A stretch of 32,338 nt of DNA from Acidimicrobiales bacterium. Lineage in GTDB: Bacteria > Actinomycetota > Acidimicrobiia > Acidimicrobiales > AC-14. Position numbers and translations under genes: made by a program. Below are positions 15,916 through 20,073 of the stretch, piece after piece (position 1 is the stretch's first letter; every line of letters starts with the position of its first letter). The stretch lies in the NCBI GenBank assembly GCA_025463925.1, contig JAODBK010000030.1, positions 1-32,338 of the forward strand. Direction: 5' to 3'. The notes beneath the pieces were generated by a model. It was not told where the DNA came from. It made no database searches and worked only from the letters and a program-made list of their open reading frames with translations.

Positions 15916-16857
15916 GTGGCCCTCGACCTCGCTCCGGCACTGGAGATCGGGCGCGCCCGGGTCAAGGTCGGCACCTGCAGCTGGACCGACGCCACCCTCG
16001 TCAAGGAGACCGACTGGTACCCGAAGCGGTCGATGAAGGCGGCCGAGCGGCTGGCCTACTACGCGGCCCGCTTCCCCCTGGTGGAGGCCGACAGCACCTA
16101 TTACTTCCCGCCCACTCCTGAGCTGACGGCGAGCTGGGTCGAGCGCACCCCGCCGGGATTCACCATGAACGTGAAGGCCTGGTCGCTCCTCACCGGCCAC
16201 CCGACGTTCCCGCACTCACTGTGGCCCGACCTCCAGGGTGAGGTGCCGAGCGAGCATCGCGACAAGCGGCGCCTCTATGCGAGCCACCTCGCCCCCGACG
16301 TGCTCGACGAGGCGTTCGCCCGCTTCCGTCACGCGCTGCTGCCGCTGGCCGAGGCCGGCAAGCTCGGCGCCGTCCTCCTGCAGTACCCGCGATGGTTCAC
16401 GCCGAAGGACGACACCCGCGCCGAGATCCTCGCGGCGCGCCAGCGCCTCCCCGACCTTCCGCTGTGCGTGGAGTTCCGCAACCGGCGATGGCTCGCGGCC
16501 GCCGAGTGCGAGAACACCCTCGAGTTCCTCGAGAACCTCGACCTGGCGTTCGTCTGCGTCGACGAGCCACAGGGCTTCGACTCGTCGCTCCCGCCGGTGG
16601 TCGCGGCGACGTCGGACCTGGCGGTGGTGCGGTTCCACGGGCGCAACACCTCCACTTGGGAGGAGAGCACCGAGACGGCGGCCGAGCGGTTCAAGTACCG
16701 CTACGCCCCTGACGAGCTGGCCGAATGGGTGCCGCGGTTGGCCGAGCTGGCCGAGTCGGCGACCGAGGTGCACGTCCTCATGAACAACTGCTGGCGCGAC
16801 GACGCCGTCGTCAATGCCGCCCAGCTCGCCCGAATGCTGGCCGGCGATCCCGGGTAA
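15916..16857 (+). CDS. DUF72 (YecE-like) family protein
   Basis: The protein is 313 aa from GTG 15916; an in-frame TTG lies at 15898 but GTG is preferred, with GGGTAGG 9 bases upstream. The sequence has the DUF72 hallmarks in order: VKVGTCSWTD near residue 16, EADSTYYFPPT near 60, KAWSLLTGHP near 90, VLLQYPRWF near 155, VEFRNRRWL near 190, VRFHGRN near 237 and VHVLMNNCW near 285. The fold is a TIM barrel; conserved acidic and aromatic residues line the barrel end, but no reaction is established for the family. It is 9 bases from the following 68-aa gene and may be co-transcribed with it. The family call is secure; the function is not known. Confidence 0.92.
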   Translation: MALDLAPALEIGRARVKVGTCSWTDATLVKETDWYPKRSMKAAERLAYYAARFPLVEADSTYYFPPTPELTASWVERTPPGFTMNVKAWSLLTGHPTFPHSLWPDLQGEVPSEHRDKRRLYASHLAPDVLDEAFARFRHALLPLAEAGKLGAVLLQYPRWFTPKDDTRAEILAARQRLPDLPLCVEFRNRRWLAAAECENTLEFLENLDLAFVCVDEPQGFDSSLPPVVAATSDLAVVRFHGRNTSTWEESTETAAERFKYRYAPDELAEWVPRLAELAESATEVHVLMNNCWRDDAVVNAAQLARMLAGDPG

Positions 16858-16866
16858 GGCGCGGGG

Positions 16867-17073
16867 ATGACCGAACGCGAGGAGAAGCTCAGCGACGCGA
16901 CCCACGAGGCCGACCGCCGCGATGCGATGAAGCACGGCGAAGCCGACCGGATGCCGACTCCCGAAGAGGAGGAGCTGGCCGAGCAGCAGACACTCGACCC
17001 CGACACCGTCGCCCACGAGAAGGAGATGGCCGAGCGGGGCGCCCACCAGAAGGGCGAGGGCCGGATCGACTGA
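16867..17073 (+). CDS. Small acidic, hydrophilic protein (68 aa)
   Basis: ATG 16867 lies 9 bases after the DUF72 stop. The product is strongly charged (Glu, Asp, Lys, Arg, His make up over half), with no cysteine and no hydrophobic core. It has a central PTPEEEELAEQQ segment. It looks intrinsically disordered or a simple helix. Codon use shows the third-position GC bias of neighbouring genes, and the gene fits neatly between two others, so I take it as real. I recognise no family. It resembles in style small stress- or DNA-associated hydrophilic proteins of actinobacteria, but that is only a comparison of composition. Confidence 0.65.
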   Translation: MTEREEKLSDATHEADRRDAMKHGEADRMPTPEEEELAEQQTLDPDTVAHEKEMAERGAHQKGEGRID

Positions 17074-17094
17074 CCTCCCCGCGACCGCGGGTCA
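17071..17094. terminator. Terminator-like palindrome between convergent genes
   Basis: The stop codon TGA (17071-17073) and the opposing stop (TCA, 17092-17094) are themselves the ends of an inverted repeat whose core is CCCGC (17078-17082)-GACC-GCGGG (17087-17091). It fills the 18-base gap and could end transcription from both sides. The stem is short and has no U-tract. Confidence 0.35.
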
Positions 17095-17853
17095 GCGGCG
17101 GCGGCGCACGATGATCACGGCCACCACGACGGCGACGATCGACGCGCCGATGACACCGATCGCGATCGCCGGGCCCGACGACCCGCTTCCGCCGCCGGCC
17201 TTCGGCGCGGTGACCACCGTCGGCTTCGGAGCGTTCGGACTCCGGGCCGGCACGTAGATCCCGAAGTCCGTGAAGATGGCGGCGACGCGGGTCCCGCCGC
17301 CGATGGCGAACGTCTCGAGCGCCTTCCACGTCTTCCCGTCGTCAGCCGAGAAGAGGGCGCCGTCGGCGCCCAGGCCGGAATCGAGGGCCACGTTGCCGGG
17401 CTTGGTGATCTTCGCGATCGGCACGCCCGAGGGCGAGAACTTCGCCGTGATGCGGTACGCGTTGCCGTCGGGGCTCTCGTTGGGCGGCAGCGGACCGAGC
17501 GTCGCCGGGTCGAGCGCGTCGAACGTCACCACGACCTCGGTGTCCGGCGGGTGCGGCGGGATCGCGCCTTCGACCAGCGAGATGATCGCCTGGGTGTCGG
17601 AGGTCTGCGGCCCGGCATTGGCCGACCCGGTCGGGCCGAGCGGCACCTTCACCGACTCGGTCGCGGGCGGCTTCACGTTGCTCGCCGCGAACTCCTTCGG
17701 CGGGTGGACCCAGTGGTACGGCACGCTCGGCGTGAAGCTGTCGAACAGTGGACGGGTGTGGCGGCCGGTCACCACGGGGGTCAGCACCACGACCACGAGG
17801 TATGCGAGGGCCACCGCAGCCCCGGCCACCGCCGAACGGTGGCGCCCGGTCAC
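17092..17853 (-). CDS. Membrane protein with two terminal membrane anchors and one Asp-box
   Basis: The protein is 253 aa from GTG 17853, which overlaps the upstream stop (GTGA); longer upstream starts would run through the preceding gene. A basic N-terminus leads into a membrane segment (about residues 8-28). A ~190-residue extracytoplasmic domain follows, then a Gly/Ser linker (GGGSGSSG) and a second membrane segment closed by RRRR at the very C-terminus. Residues 169-176 read SADDGKTW, a canonical Asp-box (SxDxGxTW) as found in beta-propeller loops, but only one copy is present, so no full propeller is built. Function is not recognised. It is the last gene of a coupled set with a substrate-binding lipoprotein and another membrane protein. 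Confidence 0.78.
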   Translation of the reverse strand: MTGRHRSAVAGAAVALAYLVVVVLTPVVTGRHTRPLFDSFTPSVPYHWVHPPKEFAASNVKPPATESVKVPLGPTGSANAGPQTSDTQAIISLVEGAIPPHPPDTEVVVTFDALDPATLGPLPPNESPDGNAYRITAKFSPSGVPIAKITKPGNVALDSGLGADGALFSADDGKTWKALETFAIGGGTRVAAIFTDFGIYVPARSPNAPKPTVVTAPKAGGGSGSSGPAIAIGVIGASIVAVVVAVIIVRRRR

Positions 17854-19109
17854 GAGACCGGCAGCACGGTGATCGGGTCGGTCGCGAACGCCGGCGGCCA
17901 CACCACCTTCATGCGCCCCGGCGCCACCCACTCACCGATCACCGACGCCGCCGCCCGGTTCTCCCCGGCGTCGGGCTGGCCCGGCGGCGGGAAGTCGATG
18001 CCGCTGCCGTTGGCGAGGGTGCCGATCGGCAGGTGGGTCGCCAACGCCGCCGCGGCGACGTCGGCCGGCGCCAAGGACGCGGCGTGCGGGAGGACGTGGT
18101 GCAACAGCGCCCACGTGCTGGCGAATCCGGCCAGCACCGGCGCGTAGAGCTCGTCGTGCCACCGCTTCTCGTACTGCGCCTTGGCCCACGCCAGCTCGGA
18201 GCGCGCGTCCGGCAGCAGCGCCGCCACCTTGATGGTGTCGCCGTCGGGCTTGTCCGACGCGAACAGGCCGACCGCCGACGGGCCGAGCGCGGCGCCGAAG
18301 TCGGGCATGCAGTATCCGGAGCTCGTGCCGACGCTGGCGAGCAGCGGCAGGTGCGCCTTCACCGTTGCGCGCCGCAGGGCCACGCCGTCCTGGAGGTACG
18401 ACGCGACCGCGAGCACGTCGGGCCGGGCGGCGGCGATCCGCGACACCAGCGCGTCCATGTCGTCGGTGACCGCGTACGGGAACGCCGCCACCTCGAGTGG
18501 ACCGCGCGCCGTGATCTCGCCGAGCGCGCCCAGGCCGACCGCCCGGCCGTAGGAGTCGTCGGCGTACGCGACCGCCCACCGCAACGGGCGGCCGGCACCG
18601 AGCTTCGGCGCCAGCTCGTCGCGGACGAACGCCACCGCATTGCGACCGAGGTTGGCCCCCATCGGCGACAGCCGGAAGAAGTGGGCACCGCCCTCGGCCA
18701 GCGGCGCGGTCTCGCCGACCGCGCCGGTCTCCCAGAGCAGCTGCCCGAGCCGGGCCGCGGCCGCGCTGGCCGGCGACGAGATGGTGCTGCCGTGGGTGCC
18801 CACGACGATCATGTCGCGGCGCGCCGCGAGCTGTTCCATGGCGGCGGGGGCCTGCTCGGCCCGCGCCACGTCGATCAGGTCGAGCGCGACCCGGCGCCCG
18901 CGCACCCCGCCGCGCTGGTTGACGAGGTCGACCGCGAGCTGCGCGCCGCGGGCCTCCTCGGCGCCGCTCGTGCCCTGCGCACCGGTGAGCGGGTAGATCG
19001 CGCCGAGGTGGAGCACCGGGCCGGCGGCGCGGCCGCCACTCGACCCGCAGGCCGTCGCCAGCAGCGCCAACGTCGCGACCGCGACCCCGACCCCGGTGAT
19101 GCGCCTCAC
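17850..19109 (-). CDS. Substrate-binding lipoprotein (branched-chain amino acid-type, Peripla_BP_6)
   Basis: The protein is 419 aa from GTG 19109, overlapping the upstream stop (GTGA). A short lipoprotein signal ends in LLATAC with the lipid-acceptor C21. The mature part has the type I periplasmic-binding fold typical of Leu/Ile/Val receptors: HLGAIYPLTGAQGTSG near residue 36, GAQLAVDLVNQRGGVRGRRV near 58-77 (cited partly: LAVDLVNQRGGV), VGTHGSTISSPAS near 106 and FRLSPMGANLGRNAV near 150. It would bind a small ligand outside the membrane. No permease or ATPase gene is nearby; instead the gene is coupled on both sides to membrane proteins. It may serve a distant transporter or act as a receptor for its neighbours. 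Confidence 0.88.
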   Translation of the reverse strand: MRRITGVGVAVATLALLATACGSSGGRAAGPVLHLGAIYPLTGAQGTSGAEEARGAQLAVDLVNQRGGVRGRRVALDLIDVARAEQAPAAMEQLAARRDMIVVGTHGSTISSPASAAAARLGQLLWETGAVGETAPLAEGGAHFFRLSPMGANLGRNAVAFVRDELAPKLGAGRPLRWAVAYADDSYGRAVGLGALGEITARGPLEVAAFPYAVTDDMDALVSRIAAARPDVLAVASYLQDGVALRRATVKAHLPLLASVGTSSGYCMPDFGAALGPSAVGLFASDKPDGDTIKVAALLPDARSELAWAKAQYEKRWHDELYAPVLAGFASTWALLHHVLPHAASLAPADVAAAALATHLPIGTLANGSGIDFPPPGQPDAGENRAAASVIGEWVAPGRMKVVWPPAFATDPITVLPVS

Positions 19110-19645
19110 GACGCGACCTGGACGATGACGGAGGTCCGCACCGGGGTGCGCCACGGCACGTGGTTCGCCTGCACGAACTCGGCCTCCAACACGTGCTCGC
19201 CGGATGTCAACCCGGTCAGGTCCTGCGACAACCCGTTCACCATCGAGACCAACTGCCTGTCGATGAAGAGATGGATGTGGCCGGCATCAGGCGTCACCTT
19301 GGTCCGCGTGATCGGCACCAGCCGGGCACCTATCAGCCGCAGCTCGACGTGGACCCGCGAGCTGTGCAGCACCTCGCCCGGCCTCGGCGTCACGAACTCG
19401 AGCCGCGCCTTGGTGTCGAGCACCTTCCCCGACAGCTTTGGCTTGGGCACCCAGGTCGTCGCGGTCACCGCCGCCACCAGCACCACCATCATCACGACCG
19501 GCAGGCCGGCACCGAGCCATCGCGACGTACGGTCGGGCCGCCGCCGGATGTGCATGAACCACGCGAACAGCCCGACGTCCACCGCGAGCAGCGCGCTCGT
19601 CACGTTGTCGGCGCCCGAGCCGAGCGCGTGCGCGAGCAGACCCAC
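19106..19645 (-). CDS. Membrane protein with extracytoplasmic beta-type domain
   Basis: The protein is 179 aa from GTG 19645. Two hydrophobic segments (about residues 17-32 and 45-67) are separated by a positively charged loop, HIRRRPDRTSR. A ~110-residue domain after the second segment contains PGEVLHSSRVHVELRL, GHIHLFIDRQLVSM and GEHVLEAEFVQANHVPW. These alternating hydrophobic strands and the GHIHLFID motif recall small Ig-like domains in secreted actinobacterial proteins (DUF4399-like), a comparison I cannot verify. It is the first of three genes joined by GTGA overlaps and lies 11 bases after the NTF2-like gene. Its role is probably to work with the lipoprotein encoded next. Confidence 0.78.
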   Translation of the reverse strand: MGLLAHALGSGADNVTSALLAVDVGLFAWFMHIRRRPDRTSRWLGAGLPVVMMVVLVAAVTATTWVPKPKLSGKVLDTKARLEFVTPRPGEVLHSSRVHVELRLIGARLVPITRTKVTPDAGHIHLFIDRQLVSMVNGLSQDLTGLTSGEHVLEAEFVQANHVPWRTPVRTSVIVQVAS

Positions 19646-19656
19646 GCGGCGGCACC

Positions 19657-20073
19657 CTAACCCTGGTCCTCGTCATCCAGGGTGGCGGGCGCGGTGATCA
19701 CCGACGCGTGATGGGCGACCATCCGCCACTCGTCGTCGTCGCCCCGCGTGAAGAGGTTCATCGCGGCGACCGCCAGCCCGGCGTCCACGTCGAGCACGTT
19801 CTCGTCGAGGGACACCCAACCCACGTCGCCGTCCATCTGCCCGTACACCTCGGTGAGGATGAACTGGAGGCGCTGGTCGTTCTGGAACAGCGCGAAGAAC
19901 GAGGCCGCGACGCGGGCCCAGCCACGCAGCGTCGGCCAGCCCGGGTGGGTGCAGGTGGCCCGGTCGCTGTGCTCCCAGAGCTGGGACATGGCGTCCAGGT
20001 CGCGGGCTTCGAAGGCGTCGTAGAACGACCGATTCGCCTCGAGCACGGCTTCGAGCTCGTCGGCGGCCGGCAC
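19657..20073 (-). CDS. NTF2-like / SnoaL-type small protein
   Basis: The product is about 138 aa. The start is unsure: GTG 20073 is used here, while an in-frame TTG at 20091 and CTG at 20085 lie closer to a GAAGGG sequence (20092-20097). The sequence has the pattern of SnoaL_3 proteins: ANRSFYDAFEARDLDAM, WEHSDRATCTHPGWPTLRGW, LQFILTEVYGQM, VGWVSLDENV and WRMVAHHAS. These form a cone-shaped alpha+beta barrel that may bind small ligands or act as an enzyme; no specific activity can be inferred. It is separated by 11 bases from the membrane-protein gene downstream and diverges from the NERD-like gene. Confidence 0.85.
   Translation of the reverse strand: MPAADELEAVLEANRSFYDAFEARDLDAMSQLWEHSDRATCTHPGWPTLRGWARVAASFFALFQNDQRLQFILTEVYGQMDGDVGWVSLDENVLDVDAGLAVAAMNLFTRGDDDEWRMVAHHASVITAPATLDDEDQG

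Follow-up and report, generated by a model that had tools for sequence, protein, structure and literature searches.

A transporterless Peripla_BP_6 lipoprotein and its membrane partners in an Acidimicrobiales genome: a reduced form of a conserved, copper-linked envelope operon

Contig JAODBK010000030.1 of the Acidimicrobiales bacterium assembly GCA_025463925.1 (32,338 nucleotides, analysed at full length and referred to here as the window) is one of the 119 contigs of a 4.08-Mb genome, in which it is numbered C48, and carries a run of three minus-strand genes, here named P1, P2 and P3 (Table 1). GTGA overlaps couple P1 to P2 and P2 to P3, and the stop of a SnoaL_3 (NTF2-like) gene lies 11 bases ahead of P1; the three genes had been reported with these coordinates, strands and overlaps in the initial annotation, all of which were borne out. 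Overlaps of the GTGA type are ordinary in GC-rich operons and are insufficient on their own to set a cluster apart from a chance arrangement, so the case for a cluster is carried by the conservation of the gene association.

Table 1. Genes of the P1-P2-P3 locus in the window, and the related pair on contig C108 of the same genome
Feature	Position	Strand	Description
P1	19106..19645	minus	Membrane-anchored protein with an outer Ig-like domain related to DUF4399
P2	17850..19109	minus	Peripla_BP_6 (LivJ-like) lipoprotein; permease/ATPase partner genes absent
P3	17092..17853	minus	ZU5/GAIN-like outer domain (predicted) flanked by two membrane helices; basic tail
SnoaL_3 (NTF2-like) gene	19657..20073	minus	PF13474, E 3.8e-20; outside the conserved set
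CPBP protease gene	C108:8262-8813		Locus L097
Second P1 gene	C108:8810-9202		Overlapped by the CPBP gene

P3 was searched for independently of its neighbours in samples of relatives, of the class and of the phylum, and was found in 12 of 41, 8 of 296 and 21 of 198 genomes, respectively (the first and last counts including the window genome). The resulting set held 37 P3 loci (12 from 11 relatives, 5 new from the class and 20 from the phylum), with the window locus and locus L067, whose P3 was missed by the search of the relatives sample, left aside; a neighbour was counted if it was encoded on the strand of P3 at a distance of no more than 8 kb. A gene for a CPBP (Rce1-like) intramembrane protease was near P3 in 33/37 loci, and P1 and P2 in 27/37 each. 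Among the relatives the counts were P2 9, CPBP 8, P1 4 and CopC-CopD 3; in the class, P1 5, CPBP 5, CopC-CopD 4 and P2 2; and in the phylum, CPBP 20, P1 18, P2 16 and CopC-CopD 10, with one further CopC-CopD on the opposite strand. Since the contigs of L056, L062, L066 and L103 end near P3, these counts can only have been lowered (L103 shows P1-CPBP-P3 without P2 and is contig-cut). Among named loci, P2 was most similar in those from Acidimicrobiia and other Actinomycetota metagenome genomes; anchored on P2, the search gave 25 named loci, including the outgroups L091 (29% identity) and L092 (25%), and the 23 true P2 loci had CPBP in 17, P3 in 16, P1 in 12 and CopC-CopD in 7. The P2-anchored and P3-anchored sets share many records and are not independent. 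The association of P1, P2 and P3, which the initial annotation had proposed to follow in related genomes, thus recurs and spans Actinomycetota and Chloroflexi, and the cluster is real, conserved and a reduced form of a larger operon.

The fuller operon is frequently ordered as an N-terminal-His secreted protein, a YcnJ-type CopC/CopD protein, P1, CPBP, P2 and P3 (HEEIN, HTI, FEN, SMALL, CUP and YtkA227 are labels coined in this analysis for further proteins of the operons). In L065 the order is CopC-CopD, HEEIN, P1, CPBP, P2, P3, HTI; in L119 and L120, among others, a 227-aa His protein is followed by CopC-CopD, P1, CPBP, P2 and P3; L052, L054 and L059 have a cupredoxin-like protein, FEN and a small protein ahead of CPBP, P2 and P3; and the Chloroflexi loci L086, L087 and L089 read CopC-CopD, P1, P3, P2, CPBP. 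FEN (L054:6908-8152 and L067:6524-7948) is a multi-helix protein of 414-474 aa beside CPBP-P2-P3 in several genomes and has no Pfam match; the name 'fenitrothion hydrolase' is applied to it tentatively. The NTF2-like gene ahead of P1 had been counted as a fourth member of the cluster, a placing that did not hold: its SnoaL_3 profile gave 0 matches in the 72 other loci scanned (some records entered twice), and the gene is therefore a neighbour. On the other side of the three genes, a small acidic open reading frame of 68 aa with good codon usage (window 16867-17073, plus strand) separates P3 from the gene at 15916-16857.

The CPBP gene of the window genome lies on contig C108, where it matches PF02517 (E 2.2e-14) and overlaps a second P1 (Table 1); it is the genome's one CPBP of this subfamily (E <=1e-8), among two Rce1-like matches overall. 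The catalytic motifs of the family (Glu-Glu-xxx-Arg, Phe-xxx-His and His) are kept, with the second Glu, the Arg and both His in 44/44 sequences and the first Glu in 43/44. In the genome of L075, CPBP adjoins HTI, and in that of L068 it is split over two frames (L135:6843-7529; either the gene is broken or the assembly is faulty) beside ZnuA, ABC-3 and FUR genes. All three window-type genomes thus retain CPBP, placed next to another member of the set or next to metal-uptake genes, and the operon appears to have been split, not lost. The CopC-CopD gene on contig C99 of the window genome is preceded by genes for a 226-aa membrane protein and a 227-aa N-terminal-His protein, and the same pair precedes CopC-CopD in Chloroflexi operons.

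P2 is a clear Peripla_BP_6 protein (PF13458, E 1.3e-21; 78.1 bits, cut-off 31.7) with the lipobox LLATAC; a lipobox was present in 29/31 distinct sequences, the window's included, a count that leaves out 12 further sequences without the anchor motif used by the script. The initial annotation had described P2 as a lipoprotein of this family without a Liv permease, and this was upheld by the window genome, which has 29 Peripla_BP_6 matches, 20 of them less than 5 kb from a BPD_transp_2 (LivH/M-type permease) match, and 57 BPD_transp_2 matches, 0 of which fall on the 32-kb window contig. Peripla_BP_6 matches on C107 and C74 are likewise without BPD_transp_2 on their contigs. Profiles of LivH and LivM built from E. 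coli K-12 and run on 72 loci and the window matched only L067 and L091, a Comamonadaceae match; these two serve as positive controls. LivH/LivM lay within 8 kb in 0/37 P3 loci and 0/23 true P2 loci, which answers the concern, raised with the initial annotation, that livHMGF genes might regularly adjoin the lipoprotein, and supports the conclusion that P2 stands outside any Liv transporter locus. The LivF and LivG profiles also match other adenosine triphosphate-binding cassette (ABC) ATPases. The genes directly after P3 at L110:6992-8712 and L050:7652-9360 encode an ATPase together with an exporter-like membrane protein.

Among solved structures the best match to P2 is 4mlc, named 'extracellular ligand-binding receptor' (E 1.2e-16); binding proteins of the Leu/Ile/Val type come next. 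These relatives, together with the 57 permease matches of the genome that could serve it, would fit a P2 that is an ordinary amino-acid binder sharing a Liv permease in trans, with P1 and P3 as unrelated neighbours; we judge this distinctly unlikely, as P2 keeps company with P3, P1 and CPBP across two phyla. The liv operon of L067 (genome G037, outside the locus sets above) lies on the same strand about 5 kb beyond P2 and has its own P2-like gene in between (profile E 3e-5). The binding pocket speaks in part in the same direction. In an alignment of 34 P2 sequences (the 14 shorter of 48 excluded) with LivJ and LivK of E. coli, and taking Ser79, Thr102, Tyr150, Tyr202 and Glu226 as the residues of LivJ that we assume to contact the amino acid, Ser79 is kept in 34/34, Tyr150 in 34/34 and Tyr202 in 33/34, but the Thr102 position is Val in 34/34, and the alignment shows no conserved Glu226, a residue that is not placeable in its poorly aligning region. 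Glu127 and Cys267 of P2 are conserved in at least 95% of the 34 sequences. The Val at the Thr102 position in all P2 sequences makes it unlikely that the ligand would be held exactly as in LivJ.

P3 has membrane helices at residues 5-29 and 231-252, an outer domain between them and a basic tail. The AlphaFold model of P3 (mean predicted local distance difference test score, pLDDT, 85.2) matched ankyrin ZU5 in Foldseek (E 1.2e-4), and VIA-align of residues 60-208 gave Z 10.8 with a root-mean-square deviation of 2.5 over 121 aligned residues (3kbt_D), followed by CD97 (Z 10.2), the GAIN domain of BAI3 (Z 10.0) and NLRP1 (Z 8.3). Among the best 25 rows, 24 were ZU5/GAIN/FIIND proteins, the exception being an axonemal chain (9fqr_Hn, Z 7.9), and unrelated enzymes started at Z 5.8; the row titles give protein names only, and the domain assignments are in part our own assumption. 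The outer domain of P3 is thus modelled as a ZU5/GAIN-type fold, which would place such a fold on a bacterial membrane protein. Pfam ZU5 gave no match among 17 P3 members, and a P3 profile gave 0 matches to solved structures at E 0.1. P3 had been labelled an Asp-box membrane protein, a label that we abandon: there is a single, sub-threshold BNR match (E 0.25; 11.9 bits, cut-off 27), and the predicted fold is ZU5/GAIN-like instead. A C-terminal sorting motif was likewise rejected, as none appears in the alignment and PGF-CTERM matched 1/17 members (E 0.27). At L055:1313-6015 (G006), extra partnerless P3 copies lie between duplicated genes, one of them broken into two overlapping frames.

The predicted arrangement of P3, an outer domain of this type between two membrane helices, would also suit a signalling switch in which P2 senses a ligand, P3 relays it across the membrane, a cut by CPBP releases the signal and the copper genes are the targets. 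The steady presence of CPBP near P3, its retained catalytic residues and the FUR-family genes that lie on the same strand just upstream of P1 in L082 and L088 are consistent with such a switch. We nevertheless regard it as unlikely, since P3 has no Pfam sigma or anti-sigma domain, its inner tail in the window is a few basic residues and no substrate is known to be cleaved. The self-cleavage motif of GAIN and FIIND domains is His-x-Ser/Thr and does not occur in every member of these families; it is not conserved in 47 P3 sequences, which argues against GAIN-type self-cleavage of P3 and against the switch.

P1 matches DUF4399 below threshold (E 6.7e-5, 23.6 bits; cut-off 28 bits). In its model (mean pLDDT 79.4), N-terminal helices at 14-35 and 47-61 are followed by a predicted beta sandwich in which most 10-residue blocks exceed pLDDT 90; the outer domain is structurally closest to an FnIII-like module (3pdd, Z 10.9), and CopC of Methylosinus appears in the Foldseek list at rank 14 (E 7.8e-4). 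A P1 profile gave 0 matches to solved structures at E 0.1. In sequence, His123, His125 and His162 (a His-x-His plus a His) are invariant in 40/40 aligned sequences, and Asp129 is kept in 39/40, Met135 in 36/40 and His151 in 36/40. Several anchored members (window P1 residues 3-6, L054:8155-8328 and L067:6524-7948) have a short leader ending in Ala-His before the first helix, and longer P1 forms have a complete signal peptide with an Ala-His end.

A lipobox-like site is found by a permissive pattern in 26/37 P1 sequences, that of the window not among them. Together with the lipobox of P2, it would lend itself to a role of CPBP in lipoprotein tailoring or sorting, in which the protease trims or modifies P1/P2 or the C-terminal anchor of P3 and copper drives lipoprotein modification. 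Passages of one report (PMC7387801) describe LnsB, which is distantly related to CPBP, as required for lipoprotein N-acylation in S. aureus and place a lit2 gene within a copper-resistance operon; the same passages have LnsB without the CPBP catalytic residues, which are kept here. One CPBP has weak matches to the NCBIfam sorting proteases MrtS and MrtJ, far below threshold (24.9 against 130 bits and 23.4 against 75 bits), and no common motif precedes the C-terminal helix of P3. A tailoring role is in our estimation very improbable.

The link to metals comes from the fuller operons. CopC (E 2.9e-23) and CopD (E 6.8e-16) occur in one protein by Pfam, with a sub-threshold YtkA match (0.0073) at its C-terminus; the importer YcnJ of B. 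subtilis is outlined in part of PMC13344008 as having the three domains CopC-CopD-YtkA. In CopC, copper is bound by an N-terminal His that follows the signal peptide, according to a section of PMC12537917, and in YcnJ it is the CopC domain that binds Cu(II), through a histidine brace, according to a section of PMC12362106. In the operons, a mature N-terminal His follows a hydrophobic leader in 12/12 HTI and 16/16 227-aa proteins; in HEEIN it was found by eye in 5/5 distinct sequences and by script in 4/5, one frame running on upstream, and in CopC-CopD the script counted 21/22, of which only 17 are true leader sites by eye. HEEIN matches DUF1775 (YcnI) weakly (E 0.1). HTI (L050:12059-13135, L065:11377-12429, L134:7082-8143 and others) is about 350 aa long, with a signal peptide, an invariant mature N-terminal His and membrane helices, and none of 8 members matches HupE/UreJ-2 or any other Pfam family convincingly; it is a candidate for a new family of His-brace copper proteins. 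A search of the window genome for HTI, which had no positive control, gave no match at E 1e-3. The argument that the assembly handles copper is one of guilt by association, backed by strong conservation.

Given this setting, we think it somewhat probable that P1-P2-P3 is a reduced copy of a conserved envelope operon handling copper, possibly also zinc. P2, a Venus-flytrap lipoprotein, would bind a small ligand outside the membrane, be it a metal chelate or something amino-acid-like, and would hand or signal it to P3, whose ZU5/GAIN-like domain is predicted to sit between two membrane helices. P1 might hold metal beside P2 and P3 through its conserved His/Met set, CPBP, encoded at the second genomic site with another P1, might mature or trim one of the anchored proteins, and CopC-CopD, on the other contig, would perform import. 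Metal binding, the ligand, a physical complex, the role of the protease and the direction of flow are parts of this scheme that we infer, and from sequence alone delivery of a chelate by P2 cannot be told from sensing of it. The initial annotation had suggested a ligand-sensing surface complex of the three proteins in place of a transporter; the non-transport half of that idea agrees with a locus that is not a Liv locus and with a conserved partner association, the NTF2-like gene and the Asp-box label of that annotation fell away, and the complex itself is possible.

Several observations weigh against the copper-handling operon as we read it. The window holds no copper gene, CopC-CopD being on C99 and CPBP on C108, and the window-type arrangement of P1-P2-P3 without CPBP is seen also in L068 and L075. 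CopC-CopD is near P3 on the same strand in 17/37 loci, less than half, and some copies have no partner at all, namely L055 and L056 by P3 (the latter contig-cut, the former uncut near its best P3) and L077, L078 (short contigs) and L084 by P2. In three loci (L050, L051 and L110) P3 is followed on its own strand by genes labelled, from their sequence, as ABC ATPase and membrane protein. Zinc-uptake genes lie beside two copies, with ZnuA, ABC-3, FUR and ArsR genes within about 6 kb in L049 and ZnuA, ABC-3, ArsP_1/YHS and YibE_F genes adjoining L068, and the metal might accordingly also be zinc. P1 shares its Ig-like fold with a great many proteins (118 chains at Z >=8), so that this common beta sandwich carries little information; the conserved His/Met residues of P1 are putative metal ligands, conservation being no proof of binding. 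Finally, 10/37 P3 loci are without P2, including the uncut P1-CPBP-P3 loci L100, L101, L109 and L122-L124, and P2 is a dispensable, optional part of the operon. With CPBP as the steadiest neighbour of P3 and P1-CPBP-P3 operons that do without P2, P2 looks like an added specificity or sensing part rather than the engine.

A more specific version of the copper-handling operon would team a transporterless Venus-flytrap lipoprotein with a ZU5/GAIN-type protein and an intramembrane protease of the glutamic type, so that a metal chelate is captured or sensed and the CopC-CopD importer is fed; we put it forward tentatively and hold it to be rather unlikely. If true, it would amount to a surface receptor for copper uptake that is built of animal-receptor-like parts and is free of an ABC transporter. 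Bacterial recognition and uptake of extracellular copper are poorly known, as stated in a section of PMC12362106, and the operons offer concrete candidates in Actinomycetota and Chloroflexi: the receptor-like lipoprotein P2, the His/Met domain of P1, the CPBP protease and several N-terminal-His proteins. The locus also illustrates that Peripla_BP_6 proteins need not be parts of transporters, despite names such as 'branched-chain amino acid ABC transporter substrate-binding protein'. Among the open-licence papers listed on the domains of the set, on the copper link and on orphan binding proteins, no title or abstract opening describes the gene set, and nothing was found there on ZU5/GAIN in bacteria or on fenitrothion hydrolase with copper. 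This points to a wider copper-linked gene set undescribed in the open-licence papers listed; what is added here to the initial annotation is its copper context, the CPBP protease and the predicted fold of P3.

Among known systems, P2 resembles LivJ and LivK (HAAT) in fold family, in secretion and in the pocket residues Ser79, Tyr150 and Tyr202, but differs in having no LivHMGF partner, in the Val for Thr102, in its conserved Cys267 and Glu127, in being a lipoprotein and in its recurrent partners P1, P3 and CPBP. The predicted fold of P3 residues 60-208 is that of the ZU5/GAIN/FIIND domains of ankyrin, UNC5B, adhesion G protein-coupled receptors and NLRP1/CARD8, whereas P3 is bacterial, has a helix at both ends, and lacks a Pfam ZU5 match and a conserved self-cleavage motif. 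HTI lacks a HupE/UreJ-2 match (8 members) and is nonetheless like the Ang-1/Ang-2 'anglerases', His-brace domains on membrane proteins outlined in part of PMC12537917, in its signal, its His1 and its C-terminal helices. Of a CopCD/YcnJ-type locus, the CopC-CopD gene is missing from the window's cluster and present on C99 of the same genome. The ycnKJI operon of B. subtilis, as described in sections of PMC13344008 and PMC12362106, is without P1, P2, P3 and CPBP; with YcnJ as a CopC-CopD-YtkA protein and YcnI as a DUF1775 protein, it is nevertheless alike to the operon of the relatives, which often has CopC-CopD with a weak YtkA match and N-terminal-His secreted proteins.

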